Source of the DNA: Nitrospira sp.
Lineage (GTDB): Bacteria > Nitrospirota > Nitrospiria > Nitrospirales > Nitrospiraceae
Assembly: GCA_005116835.1 (NCBI GenBank)
Contig: SWDM01000023.1
Coordinates: 224,519 to 288,518 of the forward strand
Direction of reading: 5' to 3'
Length of the DNA: 64,000 nucleotides
Positions within the stretch are counted from its first letter, which is position 1. The number at the start of each line of letters is the position of its first letter. Shown piece after piece: positions 38,811 through 46,470 of the stretch. Made by a program: the position numbers and the translations under genes. Under the pieces are notes generated by a model. That model was not told the origin of the DNA. It worked only from the letters and a program-made list of their open reading frames with translations, and did not search any database.

Positions 38811-39392
38811 CTACGAACGGAGGACCGCCCACCAATTCCGCAGCCATCTCGATCGCACGAGCTTGTATCCGAGCCAGGCACAGAGCAGCACGCCGAGCAA
38901 TGGTACAACCGCAACATTCACCAACTTTTGATAATCGGTCATCTGTACTCGCAAGAGATACTGGTAGCGGGAAGGATTCCGCCCCTCCGCGGTAATGATG
39001 ACTCTGTACAGGCCCTCATCTAGATTGGTTTCGCCACTGATTACTCCGGCCGGGTGACGGCTCGGACGCCAGTCTGCTACCGTCTGGGCTCCTGCCTCAT
39101 TCCTCCCGTTTCCCTTCACGATCTGCAGACCCACCGGCACGTTACGCAATGCCGGGTCCACGAGGTCCACGACAAGGAATGTCTCGCCTGTCTTGGGAAT
39201 GTCCGTGCAGTATTGAGCTTTCAACTCGTATTGCGGCTGATAGGAACTCAAATGCACCGCGCTCTCACCGACCCAGCGCACGCAAGGGTCTACTTCCAAC
39301 TCCGCTCCTTCATGTGCAACGGCTGCGCCGGGGTACAGTGCGGCAACAAGTAGGAGCACGATAAAACTTACTCGCGTCATTTGTTTATTCAT
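38811..39392 (-). CDS. Exported protein with C-terminal membrane anchor, unknown function
   Basis: 193 aa. A signal peptide (RVSFIVLLLVAALYPGAAVA, cleavage before HEGAELE) is followed by a ~130-residue periplasmic beta-rich domain with two cysteines and a C-terminal TM helix (VNVAVVPLLGVLLCAWLGYKLV) ending in a basic tail. No catalytic motif or family is recognised. The periplasmic domain faces the same compartment as the ammonia monooxygenase soluble regions, but that link is only positional. Confidence 0.7.
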   Translation of the reverse strand: MNKQMTRVSFIVLLLVAALYPGAAVAHEGAELEVDPCVRWVGESAVHLSSYQPQYELKAQYCTDIPKTGETFLVVDLVDPALRNVPVGLQIVKGNGRNEAGAQTVADWRPSRHPAGVISGETNLDEGLYRVIITAEGRNPSRYQYLLRVQMTDYQKLVNVAVVPLLGVLLCAWLGYKLVRSRWLRNWWAVLRS

Positions 39393-39914: not shown

Positions 39915-41735
39915 TCAGTGATTGTCCATGATGGCTCTAAGCTCACTGCCGGTGATCACCTCACGATCGAGCAGGGCTTTTGCTCCTTCTACGAGTGCGT
40001 GCTTCTTTTCAGCTAAGAGCCATCTCACGCGATCGTATTGCTCGTCGATGATGCGGCGCACTTCGCAGTCGATCTCGCGGGCGGTCTCCTCCGAATAGTC
40101 GCCTTTCTCCTGAGGCGCTTGAATCTGCATGATGAGAGGCTGGCGTTCACGATCAAGGGTAACAGTGCCCAGCTTCTCGCTCATCCCGTAGGACTTGATC
40201 ATGCTTTTGGCAATATCTGTGGCCCTGACCAGGTCGTTCTGCGCTCCGGTAGACGCTTCGCCGAAGATCAATTCTTCCGCATTTCGCCCTCCGAGTAAGA
40301 CGGCAATCTTGTTTTCCAACTCCGTCTTGGCCATCAGGAATCGATCCTCGGTCGGGAGCTGAAGGGTATAGCCCAACGCGGCAACGCCGCGAGGGATGAT
40401 CGAGATCTTCTGAATCGGGTCTGCTCCCGGAAACGACAGCGCTACCAAGGCGTGGCCTACTTCATGGTAAGCGACGCGTTCTTTCTCCATCTTGTTGAGA
40501 ACCCGGTTTTTCTTCTCCAATCCGGCGACAACCCGCTCCACCGCTTCTTGCAATTCCGAGTGACCCACGTGTTCCTTATTCCGACGCACAGTTAAAAGTG
40601 TGGCTTCATTGATGATATTCGCGAGGTCGGCGCCTGAGAACCCGGGGGTCATCGCGGCGATCATCTCAAGGTCTGCATCGAGCCCCAGGGTCACCTGTTT
40701 GGCATGGACGCGCAAGATAGCCAGGCGGCCGATCTTATCCGGGCGATCGACCAAGACTTGCCTGTCGAACCGGCCTGGCCGCAACAGTGCAGGATCCAAG
40801 ATTTCAGGCCGATTGGTCGCCGCCATCAGGATAACGGCGATGCGGGGATCGAAGCCGTCCATCTCGACCAGCAACTGATTCAGGGTCTGTTCACGCTCCT
40901 CATGCGCCATGGGTCCCGCCCCACGGGCTTTTCCCAATGCATCCAGTTCGTCGATGAAGATAATACAGGGCGCCTTGATCTTCGCCTGCTCGAACAGATC
41001 TCGCACGCGGGAGGCCCCCACTCCCACAAACATTTCCACAAACTCGGACCCGCTGATGCTGAAAAACGTCACGCCTGCCTCTCCTGCCACAGCGCGAGCC
41101 AGGAGCGTCTTGCCGGTTCCAGGAGGACCGACGAGTAAGATCCCTTTCGGAATCTTTCCTCCTAGACGCGTGAACTTTTCCGGTGTCTTCAGAAACTCGA
41201 TCACTTCGCGCAGTTCTTCCTTCGCCTCGTCCACACCGGCCACGTCCGCGAAGGTGACCTTCGTGTCCTTCTCGGCATAGATCTTCGCCTTCGACTTCCC
41301 CACGGTCATGAACCCTTTTTGACCCTGTCCAAGCCCCTGACCGAGGCGCCGAATCACAAAAAACCAGATACCGCCAAAGATCAGCGCAGGAATGACCCAC
41401 CACATAATGTCTCGCAAGAACGTACTCTCAATCATGCCGGTGAACTTGACGTTGCGTACATTGAGTTCCTTGACTAAATCAGGATCTTCAACCCGGACAG
41501 TCGTAAACAGCTTCGGTTCTTTTGATCCTTCTTCCGGCTTCAGTTTCCCGAGCAATGACTGACGAGTGACCGTGACTTCCGCCACGTTCCCGGCCGCCAG
41601 GAGCGTCTTGAATTCGCTATACGGAAGCTCTTCAAGCATCTGCATGGGCGTGATGAAATTGTGCACGAACATGACTGCCCCAATCGTGAGAAAGGCACAC
41701 AGGACCGAAAAGGAGATTTTTTTATTCACTGGCAT
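39915..41735 (-). CDS. ftsH: ATP-dependent zinc metalloprotease FtsH
   Basis: 606 aa. TM1 (8-26) and TM2 (~111-128) flank a small periplasmic domain ([11 protein letters not shown]). The AAA+ module has Walker A GPPGTGKT (203-210), Walker [10 protein letters not shown] and the [22 protein letters not shown]. The protease domain carries the zinc site HEVGH (424-428). It degrades misassembled membrane proteins and selected regulators. The C-terminal tail is short. Two 26- to 38-aa membrane peptides and a STAS protein are encoded just upstream, an unusual setting that suggests a specialised FtsH copy. Confidence 0.95.
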
Positions 41736-41906: not shown

Positions 41907-41987
41907 CTAAGGTTGGAAGTAACCAGTTGCAAGTACCAGACACATCAAAATCACGGCACCAAGAATAATGAAAATGACGCCCTTCAT
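41907..41987 (-). CDS. 26-aa membrane micropeptide, downstream copy
   Basis: ATG at 41987 with GAGGAG 8 nt upstream. Encodes a peptide beginning MKGVIFIILGAVILMCLV and ending in FQP-stop: essentially one TM helix with a single Lys at the N-terminus. It is nearly identical to the peptide encoded at 42036-42152; conservation of the amino acids, separate ribosome-binding sites and silent or conservative changes (for example GTACTT against GCACTG) indicate that both are translated genes. No family is known to me. Confidence 0.7.
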   Translation of the reverse strand: MKGVIFIILGAVILMCLVLATGYFQP

Positions 41988-42035
41988 GGTGTGAACTCCT
42001 CGTTGAAAAACTATAGATGGCATTAGCATTCGGCC

Positions 42036-42152
42036 TTAGGGCCTGAGGAGGCCCGTTGCCAGTGCCAGGCACATCACAAGCACGGCACCAAGAATAATGA
42101 AAATGACGCCCTTCATGGAGTCATCTTTTTTTTGAAGAGTAGTATTTGCCAT
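42036..42152 (-). CDS. 38-aa membrane micropeptide, upstream copy
   Basis: ATG at 42152 behind a strong GGAGG with 8-nt spacing. A 12-residue polar leader (MANTTLQKKDDS) precedes the same membrane segment as the downstream copy, MKGVIFIILGAVLVMCLA, and the peptide ends in LLRP. An internal ATG at 42116 corresponds to the start of the 26-aa copy. The tandem pair lies between the STAS gene and ftsH on the same strand. Possible roles are modulators or substrates of FtsH, or stress-related membrane peptides. Confidence 0.7.
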   Translation of the reverse strand: MANTTLQKKDDSMKGVIFIILGAVLVMCLALATGLLRP

Positions 42153-42204: not shown

Positions 42205-42471
42205 TTATCCTTCTCTGCCCTTCTCACGGCTCATCCACTCCCGTATGTACGGCCAGCAATTGAGGAGCTGGACACCGTTTTTTTCACAGGCGTTCAGAAA
42301 ACGAATGATCTCGACATCCACGAGCGTCACTCCGTTGAGGTCCAGTGCAACCCGCGACCGAGCGCCTTCCAATTGCGTCTTCAATTCCTCCAGATGCTTC
42401 GCTTGCAACCGACCGCTTAGACAAATCATCGTCTTGAGGCGGCGGGTTTCTTTTTCAAATTTTATTGTCAT
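42205..42471 (-). CDS. STAS-domain protein
   Basis: 88 aa from MTIKFEKETRRLKTMICLSGRL; a longer frame upstream is not homologous. The fold is anti-sigma-factor-antagonist like: strand, helix (KHLEELKTQLEG), strand VALDLNGVTLVDVEIIRFLNACEKNG. The Ser/Thr phosphorylated in SpoIIAA-type proteins (D-S/T-G/S) is replaced by LVDVE, so regulation by phosphorylation is doubtful. It likely mediates protein-protein signalling in the gene group that includes the sigma-54 activator next to it. Confidence 0.75.
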   Translation of the reverse strand: MTIKFEKETRRLKTMICLSGRLQAKHLEELKTQLEGARSRVALDLNGVTLVDVEIIRFLNACEKNGVQLLNCWPYIREWMSREKGREG

Positions 42472-42751
42472 CTGTGACCTCTCAACCTGGACGATATAAA
42501 AATAGTGCAATGAAGAGGCCAGCTATAAACCATTGAAATGTTTGTGTTTTGCGTGTAGATGCCTGCCGAAGTTTCAGCATTTGCTGAATGATCGGCAAAA
42601 GAGGCAGGAGTATCCGGTGAAATTTCAATTCTCGGTCGGATTGCGTGGAGGATAGTGAGCGGGTGCGGGGTCAGGAGAGTCGTCTAAAACACAAGCAATG
42701 ATTCACGAGAGGCCGGTTTTCGCAGATGGCGCCCAAACAACTTTTGGCTTT

Positions 42752-44761
42752 TTATCGTGCGTAGTCGGCTTGGCGAGTCTTGAAGCGATGCTTGTTAATT
42801 CCCAGGGCCGTGATTTTCGACTCAAGCGTCTGCCTCGGGAGTCCGAGCTTGGCAGCGGCGCCGGTTGGGCCCGCGACCTGGCCCCCGCAATCCGCCAACG
42901 CCGCTTCAATGATGTCCTTTTCATGCTCGGCCAGCGTGGCGCCTAGGGGAATTACCGACCCCGACAGTCTGTGCTTTTCCCGTTTCAACCATGTCTCGTC
43001 GACGGAAAATGTTTCGCTCTCGCACAGCACGATCGCTCGCTGGATGACGTTCTGCAGCTCGCGAATGTTGCCGGGCCAGTCGTAGGCCTGAAACAACTCC
43101 AAGGTCTCTTTCTGTATATTTTTGATTTTTTTCCCGGCCTTCTTCGCATAGCGTTCAATCAGGTAGGTGACGAGTAACGGGATGTCGTCCATCCGTTCGC
43201 GTAACGGGGGGACCTGGATTGGGAAGACATTCAGCCTGTAAAAGAGATCCTGGCGAAATGTGCCTGCCGCCATGGCTGCCTTCAGATCGCGATTCGTAGC
43301 GGCCAACACGCGCACGTCAACGGAAATCGATTGGCTGCCGCCGACCCGTTCAATTTCCCCCTCTTGCAGGACTCTCAGGAGAGCGATTTGGGTCTCGGCA
43401 GGCAGATCTCCGATCTCATCAAGGAAGATCGTCCCGCCATCGGCCAGTTCAAATCGCCCTAAACGCCGTTGTATCGCCCCCGTAAACGCGCCTTTCTCAT
43501 GTCCGAACAGCTCAGAGGCAATGAGCGAAGCTGGGATCGCCGCACAATTGACGGTAATGAATGCCCGGGACGACCGCTTCGAGCGCTTGTGAATGGCCCG
43601 TGCGATCAGCTCCTTGCCCGTCCCGGTCTCACCCAGCACGAGTACCGTGGAATCTGACGGCGCCACTTTGGTGACTTGCGTCAATATGTTGCGGATGACG
43701 TCCGACGAGCCGACGATTTCTTCAAACATCGAAGACTGATCGATCTCTTCGCGCAACGCCAAGTTTTCTTTTTGAGTTCTCTCTTCCGCCCGTTTGCGAT
43801 CGTCGATGTCGGTCCCTGTCGCGTACCAGCGAATGATCCGTCCTTCTTCGTCCTGCAAGGGGTTATAGCGGATCAGAAGCCACCGATATTGCCCATCCTT
43901 CCGGCGAGCACGTAGCTCCAATTCAAATGGGGTTTCGCGTTCGAGCGCATGCTGGCGCTCGTTCTGTGATCTCTCGATATCATCAGCGTGAAAAAATCGT
44001 GCGCGAAAGTCATCTGCCATGACATCTTCCAAGCTCAGACCGCTGTAGTCGAGCACAAATCGATTCGCATAGAGAGTTTTCCCATCGGGTCCCAGGACAC
44101 AAATGAGTTGAGCGATCGCGTCGGTGATGCGTCGCAGTTCCCGTTCATCTTGGCGGAGCTTCTCCTCCCTATGCTTATGCTCAATAGCAACCGTCGCCAG
44201 ATGCGTGATCTGTCCGATGAGGTGTTGATGGTACGCACTAGGGCTACCAGGTTCGCGCGAGTAAATCGCGAAGGTGCCCAATACTGTGTCGTCGGATGAC
44301 AATATTGGAGTGGACCAACAAGCCCGCAGTCCATGGGCCATGGCCAGTGCGCGCCATTCGTACGTGTCCCATCGCGCGTCCGACGCAACATCGGCGGCAA
44401 TCACTTGCTCTTTGAGACTTGCCGCCATGGCGCAGGGACCCGAGAGGAGATTCACGGGTCTGCCATGGATCGATTCGTTATAGCTGAGAGGAAGGCTGGG
44501 AGCCGCACCGTGCTTTAGTCGATTGCTGATAGGATCGACCAGTACGATTCCACAGAGAGATCCGCTCGCGATATCTTCGATGAGTCGGCATAAGGCATCA
44601 AGGAATTCTGAGAGCGTACATCCGGTGGCGAGCATCTCGAGAAGGCGATTTTCTCCGGCAAGCAATGTCTCGGCCCACTTACAGTCTTCGATATCGGAAT
44701 GAGAGAGGCCATCGGGCGTGGCCGACCGCTGAGTGGTTTCATTGTGAAGGTTGGGTTTCAT
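42752..44761 (-). CDS. Sigma-54-dependent activator with GAF and PAS domains
   Basis: 669 aa. A GAF domain (~45-195, CGIVLVDP...GTFAIYSREP) and a PAS/PAC pair (~205-325) precede the AAA+ module: Walker A GETGTGKE (377-384), sigma-54 contact loop GAFTGA (424-429), Walker B GGTIFLDEIGDLP. A C-terminal Fis-type HTH (LGLPRQTLESKITALGI) closes the protein. The GAF-PAS input suggests sensing of a small molecule or redox state. It is transcribed away from amoC; the intergenic DNA contains a sigma-54-like promoter facing amoC, so amoC is the likely target. Confidence 0.92.
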   Translation of the reverse strand: MKPNLHNETTQRSATPDGLSHSDIEDCKWAETLLAGENRLLEMLATGCTLSEFLDALCRLIEDIASGSLCGIVLVDPISNRLKHGAAPSLPLSYNESIHGRPVNLLSGPCAMAASLKEQVIAADVASDARWDTYEWRALAMAHGLRACWSTPILSSDDTVLGTFAIYSREPGSPSAYHQHLIGQITHLATVAIEHKHREEKLRQDERELRRITDAIAQLICVLGPDGKTLYANRFVLDYSGLSLEDVMADDFRARFFHADDIERSQNERQHALERETPFELELRARRKDGQYRWLLIRYNPLQDEEGRIIRWYATGTDIDDRKRAEERTQKENLALREEIDQSSMFEEIVGSSDVIRNILTQVTKVAPSDSTVLVLGETGTGKELIARAIHKRSKRSSRAFITVNCAAIPASLIASELFGHEKGAFTGAIQRRLGRFELADGGTIFLDEIGDLPAETQIALLRVLQEGEIERVGGSQSISVDVRVLAATNRDLKAAMAAGTFRQDLFYRLNVFPIQVPPLRERMDDIPLLVTYLIERYAKKAGKKIKNIQKETLELFQAYDWPGNIRELQNVIQRAIVLCESETFSVDETWLKREKHRLSGSVIPLGATLAEHEKDIIEAALADCGGQVAGPTGAAAKLGLPRQTLESKITALGINKHRFKTRQADYAR

Positions 44762-45368
44762 ATGTCCTCTCCCAAATAGAGGCAGGTTACGTCAAAACCA
44801 ACAAGGAAGAATATTCTGCTGACCATCGTCTAGCTGGCGAAAGGGCGAACTCTCTATCGTTTCGTCATTGCCCGACGCCTATCCTCCTGGCGAATCTGCA
44901 ACGGAAGCTTTTCCGCTCGCGCACCTCACTCCGCCGACGGAGGCGGAAGTGCCTAGATCATATCACCATAAGTGCATAATACTCCCGTTAGTCACCAAAA
45001 ATCACTAGCCTTCCATGGTGACCAACAGGTGCCGTATGCCTTTATCTTGCGTCATGCATCGGCACATAGAATCAGAACGGCTGTCACATCACGTTCTGGT
45101 CCTTCATCCTCCATGTCAATCAGCCTTATATAAAGAGATTACCTTCAGTCCAAAACTCAGGAGTTCGGTGTCTCTCGCACTTCTTAGCCTGGTTTCTCAT
45201 CCAGCCCCTGTGAATGGTTCGGCGAAAGCTGATTTTTCGGCATCATGCTGTAATCTCGGCAAACAGCCTCAGCACTTCATTGATTTCACTGCAGAGATTC
45301 CCGAGTGAAAATGCTCATTCTATTGAAGTTTCAGCACCGTCGATGACGAATTCACGCGGACGCTCTGC
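44762..45368. promoter_or_regulatory. Long divergent intergenic region between sigma-54 activator and amoC
   Basis: About 600 bp without a convincing gene, markedly richer in A/T than the flanking coding DNA. It must hold the promoter of the activator gene and could hold upstream activator sites for the sigma-54 promoter at 45369. I could not identify a clear enhancer palindrome. Short forward frames here (for example 45015-45308) have no ribosome-binding site or family resemblance. Confidence 0.5.
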
Positions 45369-45384
45369 TGGAATGCGAGTTGCG
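45369..45384 (+). promoter_or_regulatory. Candidate sigma-54 (-24/-12) promoter for amoC
   Basis: The sequence TGGAATGCGAGTTGCG matches the sigma-54 consensus TGGCACG-N4-TTGCW at 9 of 12 defined positions, including the invariant GG (45370-45371) and GC (45382-45383) at the required 10-nt spacing. Transcription would begin near 45395, about 50 nt before the leader ORF and 135 nt before amoC. The adjacent divergent gene encodes a sigma-54 activator, which makes the match more credible. Confidence 0.55.
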
Positions 45385-45446
45385 TATGAACAGCATCAGG
45401 AAATGCCAAATGCATCTGTGGATCAGATAGGAAGGAGGAAATTGAA

Positions 45447-45554
45447 ATGGCAGGCAACATATTTCGCAGGGGTTTTCACAACCATCCCACAGGGGTGGTT
45501 CTCAAGAGCATGAAGGGAGGGTCAGAACATGGCAAAAGCAACTACATTCGGTGA
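45447..45554 (+). CDS. Possible leader ORF overlapping the amoC start
   Basis: 35 codons, ATG at 45447 with AGGAGG 8 nt upstream, a better ribosome-binding site than many genes here. It ends at a TGA (45552-45554), 26 nt inside amoC in another frame. The peptide (begins [18 protein letters not shown]) has no known family and no TM helix. It could couple or attenuate amoC translation. It might also be a remnant of the original amoC 5' end. Confidence 0.45.
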
Positions 45555-46329
45555 GAGCGACCTCGGGTATGACATGTCGCTCTGGTACGACTCCAAGCCC
45601 CTCAAGATCGGCTGGTTCACCATGTTAGCCGCGGTGGGATCCGAGGTCGTGTTCCAGCGTGTCTTCGGCTTCTCCCACGGCTTGGACTCCATGACGCCGG
45701 AATTCGAAAATGTCTGGATGAACCTCTGGCGTTTTAACGTGATTGCCAATATCATCTTCGCAGCCGCGGTCTTGGGGTGGATTTGGACTACGCGGGATCG
45801 CAACGTGGCCAACGTGGATCCCAAAACGGAACTCAAACGGTATTTTTATTGGATGGGGTGGCTCGCGGTGTACGTCTTCGGCGTGTACTGGGCAGGGAGC
45901 TTTACTCTTGAGCAGGATGCGTCGTGGCACCAGGTGATCATCCGCGATACGAGCTTCACCTCCAGCCATATCATCGCCTTCTACTTCACCTTCCCTCTCT
46001 ACATCACATGTGGCCAGGCGGTTTACCTGTATGCCAGGACCCGGTTGCCGCAGTTCAGCAAGGGCATCTCGTTCCCCTTGGTGGGAGCGATCGTCGGGCC
46101 GATGATGATTCTGCCCAATGTGGGACTCAACGAGTGGGGGCATGCGTTCTGGTTCGTCGATGAACTCTTCGCGGCGCCGTTGCACTGGGGCTTCGTGACC
46201 CTGGGATGGTGCGGACTATTCGGCGGGACGGGGGGCGTGGCAGCGCAGATCGTGGCCCGCATGTCCAACCTGTCTGATGTGATCTGGAACAACGAGAGCA
46301 AAGACTGTTTGAAGGTGATCCCGTACTGA
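45529..46329 (+). CDS. amoC: Ammonia monooxygenase subunit C, stand-alone copy
   Basis: 266 aa, full length for AmoC, with GGGAGGG upstream. Integral membrane subunit of the copper enzyme that oxidises ammonia to hydroxylamine. TM helices are visible at about residues 27-47, 66-88, 105-124, 145-168, 180-196 and 215-237. The AmoC/PmoC copper ligands are conserved with exact spacing: D130, H134 and H147 (DASWH ... SSH). amoA and amoB are not adjacent; in front is a long regulatory region and behind a strong terminator, so it is a monocistronic extra copy. Orphan amoC genes are known in ammonia oxidisers and in Nitrosomonas are linked to stress recovery. Confidence 0.95.
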
Positions 46330-46346
46330 GACGTGTCAATGGGCTA

Positions 46347-46393
46347 GCCCCGCGTTCTCGATGCAGAAGCGCGGGGCCGGCCAACTGGCCGGC
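46347..46393 (+). terminator. Tandem GC-rich hairpins after amoC
   Basis: Two stem-loops follow the amoC stop: GCCCCGCG paired with CGCGGGGC (46347-46354 / 46370-46377), and GCCGGCC paired with GGCCGGC (46376-46382 / 46387-46393). No T-run follows either, so they may stabilise the amoC mRNA 3' end rather than stop transcription. Confidence 0.55.
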
Positions 46394-46427
46394 TAGAATA
46401 GAGAAAGTTTCAGCGCTTTCAGTGTCA

Positions 46428-46470
46428 AACACGGGCGACCTCCTCGGTAGGAGGTCGCCCGTGTTGTTTC
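46428..46470. terminator. Rho-independent terminator after amoC
   Basis: A perfect 17-bp stem, AACACGGGCGACCTCCT paired with AGGAGGTCGCCCGTGTT, with loop CGGT, is followed by a T-rich tail (TTGTTTC). It would end the amoC transcript about 100 nt after its stop codon and isolate it from the esterase gene. Confidence 0.88.

Follow-up and report, generated by a model that had tools for sequence, protein, structure and literature searches.

Ammonia oxidizers retain spare amoC genes, and the reason for this is an old question. All comammox genomes are said to have at least one non-operonal amoC, and amoC3 of ammonia-oxidizing bacteria has been tied to stress (PMC6311188). Regulation in comammox Nitrospira, clade B above all, is almost unknown. 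Here we ask what controls one such gene, located in a 64,000-nucleotide stretch of DNA (G000:C16:224519-288518, hereafter the window) from a 3.94-Mb Nitrospira genome (the home genome, G000). Our preferred reading, to which we give a probability of roughly 0.78, is that this amoC is transcribed by sigma-54 polymerase under a neighboring activator, EBP1, and a tandem dyad; that EBP1 also drives a STAS operon; that the EBP1-STAS pair is the older one, amoC having been added later; and that a role in repair of ammonia monooxygenase (AMO) is plausible.

The gene and its terminator are located as follows:

45529..46329, + strand: stand-alone amoC, 266 aa, with Pfam/NCBIfam AmoC matches, complete copper-ligand patterns and a place in the tree as a locus-specific paralog
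46428..46465, + strand: terminator hairpin of 17 bp 3' of amoC (-35 kcal/mol, z -8.3)

The product matched Pfam AmoC PF04896 (E 5e-105, 351 bits) and scored 342 bits against NCBIfam AmoC_BACT NF041641, above the curated cut-off of 319. Both copper-site patterns are complete (D130/H134/H147, spaced D-x3-H-x12-H, and N201/H205/H219). By family profile and copper-site spacing it is a bacterial ammonia monooxygenase subunit C, with putative assembly into AMO. The original prediction had described a complete amoC with its copper ligands and its own strong terminator, with amoA and amoB absent beside it. Profiles, residue spacing and hairpin all agree with this; neither amoA nor amoB occurs nearby, and the single amoA of the genome lies at the end of contig C16 (C16:398023), ~128 kb away. 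Beyond amoC an esterase-like protein and an SPFH/Band-7 protein are encoded. A possible leader peptide with a good ribosome-binding site (45448-45555, + strand) overlaps the amoC start; its own start and stop are not kept in all relatives.

Four amoC matches were found in the home genome: the window copy and one each on C8, on C10 (N-terminus within an assembly gap) and at the end of C18, the last adjoining copCD and amoE/amoD-type genes. With the sole amoA at the C16 end, the C18/C16 break probably falls within the amoCAB operon. In this main amo cluster, copD and the contig-end amoC are separated by a transposase-like ORF (L035 11268-12191). In the AmoC tree, the copies of the home genus cluster with full support with a genome named "Rifle clade B", and the genus of G055 falls outside this cluster; from this name and the tree we infer that the organism is a clade B comammox Nitrospira. 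AmoC copies at the EBP1 locus form two supported clades, and the window copy sits on a long branch, so it is more than an identical spare.

Could this gene nevertheless be a decaying, functionless copy? Searches with tblastn initially returned only amoC fragments beside EBP1 in four relatives (G007, G024, G026, and G027), as remnants would appear. However, every fragment borders a 100-N scaffold gap, as expected for a repeated gene whose several near-identical copies break the assembly. The piece missing from G027 sits at the end of another scaffold, and an overlap of 55 identical bases ties its ends to the gap edges. Moreover, the window gene has an intact frame and intact copper ligands, and the copies form locus-specific clades. 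We therefore rejected decay in the relatives and regard a functionless window gene as extremely unlikely.

Divergent to amoC lies the candidate activator:

42752..44761, - strand: EBP1, GAF-PAS-AAA+-Fis sigma-54 activator, 669 aa, identified by Pfam domains, GAFTGA and Walker A

The region singled out by the original prediction began at 44762, the base directly upstream of the first codon of this gene. A divergent GAF-PAS-AAA+ activator with intact GAFTGA had been proposed, and the Pfam domains (GAF_2, PAS_3, Sigma54_activat, and a Fis HTH) bear this out. EBP1 thus has the AAA+ domain with intact Walker A, the intact GAFTGA and the Fis-type HTH of a sigma-54 enhancer-binding protein. RpoN is encoded on C19 of the same genome, as a sigma-54 promoter requires. 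Orthologs of EBP1, whole or partial and 85-95% identical, are present in nine genomes of the same genus.

Between EBP1 and amoC two control elements are predicted:

45369..45384, + strand: predicted sigma-54 -24/-12 element of amoC, TGGAATGCGAGTTGCG, with GG-N10-GC spacing, conserved
45227..45261, + strand: tandem dyad, predicted upstream activator site (UAS) of amoC, AGCTGATTTTTCGGCA-TCA-TGCTGTAATCTCGGCA, 19-bp spacing, rare in the genome and conserved

The -24/-12 match has the GG-N10-GC spacing of an enhancer-dependent promoter; taken alone it is at chance level. The bare motif TGGN8TTGC occurs 13 times in the window against 9.8 expected, other sites score as well, and the amoC element differs at several positions from the published consensus YTGGCACGrNNNTTGCW (PMC5874634), which counts against our reading. 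We therefore dropped motif score as a basis for judging this promoter. What gives the element weight is its conservation together with the tandem dyads. It is kept as CTGCTGGAATRYGARTTGC in seven sequences of six species. Within these, the -24/-12 element and the dyad at 45227-45242 surpass every other 16-nt window of the amoC-EBP1 intergenic region in conservation. In each of the two, 13 of 16 columns are invariant, versus 21% overall (column-shuffle P = 0.0002, a guide only, as the shuffle ignores clustering of conservation). The distance to amoC is near-constant at ~153-160 bp for the -24/-12 element and ~277-302 bp for the dyad (G025, G014, G026, and the G027 gap piece). The position originally predicted at 45369-45384 thus stands as a supported candidate sigma-54 promoter, while the bare motif on which it had been proposed does not distinguish it from chance.

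The chance frequency of the bare motif is what would be expected if the match were a coincidence and amoC were expressed constitutively from a sigma-70-type promoter. Conservation in seven sequences with the UAS at a near-fixed distance argues against this, as does the recurrence of a homologous promoter arrangement beside EBP2 and in UBA2082 (both described below), and we consider a coincidental match very unlikely.

Each dyad has the form TGCYGA-N4-TCRGCA, two stand in tandem, and the amoC pair lies 126 bp upstream of the -24/-12 element. Genome-wide counts rest on pattern searches. The strict tandem pattern was found in 15 of 198 genomes searched, and the reversed control pattern in none of the 198. 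With up to three mismatches, the 3.94-Mb home genome contains exactly three sites: one upstream of amoC, one between EBP1 and the STAS gene, and one just downstream of EBP2 on C8. The second of these belongs to a gene set on the other side of EBP1:

42564..42597, - strand: second tandem dyad, predicted UAS upstream of the STAS gene, TGCCGATCATTCAGCA-AA-TGCTGAAACTTCGGCA, 18-bp spacing, 0 mismatches
42506..42521, - strand: predicted sigma-54 promoter of the STAS gene, TGGCCTCTTCATTGCA, near-consensus and conserved in aligned species
42205..42471, - strand: small STAS-domain protein, second predicted EBP1 target, with syntenic orthologs (STAS_2 E 1.6e-5, a match below the curated cut-off)
42036..42152, - strand: conserved small membrane peptide, 38 aa, core MKGVIFIILGAVLVMCLALATGLLRP, kept in related loci
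41907..41987, - strand: second conserved small membrane peptide, 26-aa core MKGVIFIILGAVILMCLVLATGYFQP, kept in related loci
39915..41735, - strand: FtsH membrane protease downstream of STAS, NCBIfam FtsH_fam 788 bits, syntenic in relatives
38811..39392, - strand: AmoE-like (PmoD family) periplasmic protein, Cx7xVHx14C without the Met ligand, paralog of the C18 amoE/amoD beside copCD

The STAS promoter is the only match in the window to TGGCNYN5TTGCA. Measured from the predicted starts, the dyad centers lie ~150 bp (amoC) and ~85 bp (STAS) upstream, within the ~80-200 bp typical of a UAS. FtsH is possibly co-transcribed with STAS as a target of EBP1. The tiny membrane peptides of the STAS-FtsH interval (41907-42152, - strand) are present in the loci of most relatives, the 26-aa core reading MKGVIFIILGAV..MCL.LATG. 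The AmoE-like proteins of the home genome (38811-39392, - strand, and L035 6298-7191) have Val, Ala or Leu in place of the Met of the copper motif Cx7MxHxnC; both AmoD copies retain Cx8MH.

The strongest evidence that EBP1 reads the dyads comes from the STAS side. The STAS dyad and promoter are conserved in the aligned species, including the non-comammox G081, which lacks amoC and is a member of another family, and the site adjoins an EBP1 ortholog in all loci aligned. Against our reading, the STAS dyads persist in G019 and G023, where EBP1 is missing, so such sites can be maintained by another factor.

The third genomic site raises the question of which activator works at amoC. EBP2 (C8:623104-624111) is a second, related sigma-54 activator with three GAF domains. 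Behind it on C8 come the tandem dyad and TGGAACGCGAGTTGC, then a small zinc-ribbon-like ORF and one gene each for an AmoE-like protein, a STAS-like protein and a membrane fusion protein of the RND type (L232 3509-7447; G000 C8:621508-625446). The control region of amoC aligns over its full length with the EBP2-side region, including the dyad spacing, the TTTCAGCA element and TGGAAYGCGAGTTGC. This homology counts against our reading, as EBP2 could act at amoC instead: the promoter would be real, its control region a copy of the EBP2-side promoter, and the working activator EBP2, or the two paralogs would cross-talk. Both regions share 19-bp spacing, while the STAS site has 18 bp. The half-sites of amoC (TGCTGA/TCGGCA), however, are nearer to those of the EBP1-STAS site, the EBP2 site using TGCCGA; G026 keeps the amoC site, and no EBP2-type tandem site was found in that genome; the HTH regions of the two activators are only 44% identical; and EBP1 is the direct neighbor of amoC, EBP2 being on C8. 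On balance we judge control by EBP2 unlikely and retain EBP1 as the activator of amoC. A motif unique to EBP1 is nonetheless a weakened idea, given the similar site of the paralog. In other Nitrospira, tandem dyads of the same type lie downstream of further GAF-type sigma-54 activators (L218 580-613 and L231 9500-9533), which suggests a binding motif common to the family.

To establish how far the arrangement extends, orthologous loci were compared. An activator ortholog, the -24/-12 element and the UAS pair occur together beside stand-alone amoC in G000, G014 (two copies), G025, G026, and G030. The dyads and promoter of G027 are on the assembly gap piece, and in G024 the activator is cut short. 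This co-occurrence, together with RpoN, supports the originally proposed control of the extra AmoC by a signal-sensing sigma-54 activator. The original prediction had named a lack of motif and activator next to orthologous amoC genes as grounds for rejecting it, and it withstood this check. Among other amoC copies, the same promoter was found at none outside the EBP1 locus; an apparent case on C40 of G027 was the misplaced gap piece of that locus. The amoC with dyads is absent from G005, which retains only a C-terminal piece of EBP1, and from G019 and G023, which have no EBP1; this joint loss speaks for our reading.

Two loci carry the activator with other neighbors. In strain UBA2082 an EBP1 ortholog (81%) and a similar UAS and promoter face not amoC but a tautomerase-like gene with an aldehyde dehydrogenase behind it (both genes named by eye from translations). 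In G031, EBP1 and the STAS site are present and amoC is not adjacent, an alcohol dehydrogenase-like gene being upstream of the activator, and this counts against our reading. UBA2082 also has a different stand-alone amoC immediately behind another sigma-54 activator gene; the interval between the two holds no clear -24/-12 element (L245 4925-7468), and the association is possibly an independent one. Judged from these comparisons, EBP1 is older than its link to amoC, and we infer that amoC came under a control region that the EBP1/EBP2 activator family already possessed. The original prediction had missed this order of events, as well as the UAS pair, the STAS-side target and the chance level of the bare -24/-12 motif.

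The genes, the sites, their conservation and their rarity in the genome are read directly from the DNA. The proposed mechanism adds a signal, binding by EBP1, transcription and a role in repair. The GAF/PAS sensor of EBP1 would detect a signal; EBP1 would bind at 45227-45261, the tandem dyad, and looping of the intervening DNA would bring its AAA+ domain to sigma-54 polymerase and open the promoter at 45369-45384. It would likewise drive the STAS operon through the dyad at 42564-42597 and the promoter at 42506-42521, so that extra AmoC would be made together with STAS, the small membrane peptides and perhaps FtsH. The bacterium thus probably adds or replaces AmoC on sensing a signal, and the new AmoC would plausibly replace or stabilize a damaged AMO subunit. 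FtsH with SPFH partners is a known pairing in membrane-protein quality control, which makes replacement or stabilization of AMO subunits under stress the most plausible role of the locus. EBP1 and its STAS target would be the older module, into which clade B comammox later plugged a spare amoC.

A broader proposal is more speculative, and we think it rather less probable than its negation: clade B comammox would run a dedicated sigma-54 regulon for AMO maintenance, in which one sensor activator would switch on replacement AmoC along with a set for membrane quality control (the STAS protein, the tiny membrane peptides, and FtsH), an AmoE-like copper protein would answer to a sister activator, and single AMO subunits would be exchanged on demand. 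In either case the DNA of the locus spells out a precise, testable circuit of an activator, predicted binding sites and two targets. With the amoC promoter, a reporter assay for the signal behind extra AmoC is ready to hand, and the locus illustrates how a core nitrification subunit may be wired into an older sigma-54 regulon.

We know of no neighborhood common to this locus and the monocistronic amoC3 of Nitrosomonas europaea. The two genes are alike in being extra amoC copies outside amoCAB that encode an intact subunit, with amoC3 thought to serve stress recovery (Berube and Stahl 2012, as cited in PMC6311188 and PMC11561398). They differ in control: as far as these citing accounts go, amoC3 is linked to a stress sigma factor (sigma-32 in PMC6311188, sigma-E in the original prediction), whereas the window amoC would use sigma-54 and an enhancer-binding protein. 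PmoD/AmoE copper proteins occur near lone pmoC/amoC genes (PMC6189053, also the source of the Cu-A motif), just as AmoE-like genes lie at the window locus and near the C8 amoC; unlike those proteins, the window protein has the Cu-A Met replaced, and PMC6189053 describes no sigma-54 control. In Nitrospira, sigma-54-dependent regulators adjoin nxrAB paralogs, again copies of a core nitrification enzyme (PMC6606698), although there the enzyme is nitrite oxidoreductase, the activators are others, and the part of that report available describes no UAS. In our literature search, with many subscription papers outside its reach, no publication turned up that places amoC or pmoC under sigma-54 control. 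The sMMO operon is controlled by sigma-54 and MmoR (PMC5874634), and shares with the window locus a monooxygenase gene, a -24/-12 promoter and a nearby sigma-54 activator, GAF-bearing in some species. There, however, the whole operon of an unrelated di-iron enzyme is controlled, whereas here the predicted target is one spare subunit of a copper membrane monooxygenase.
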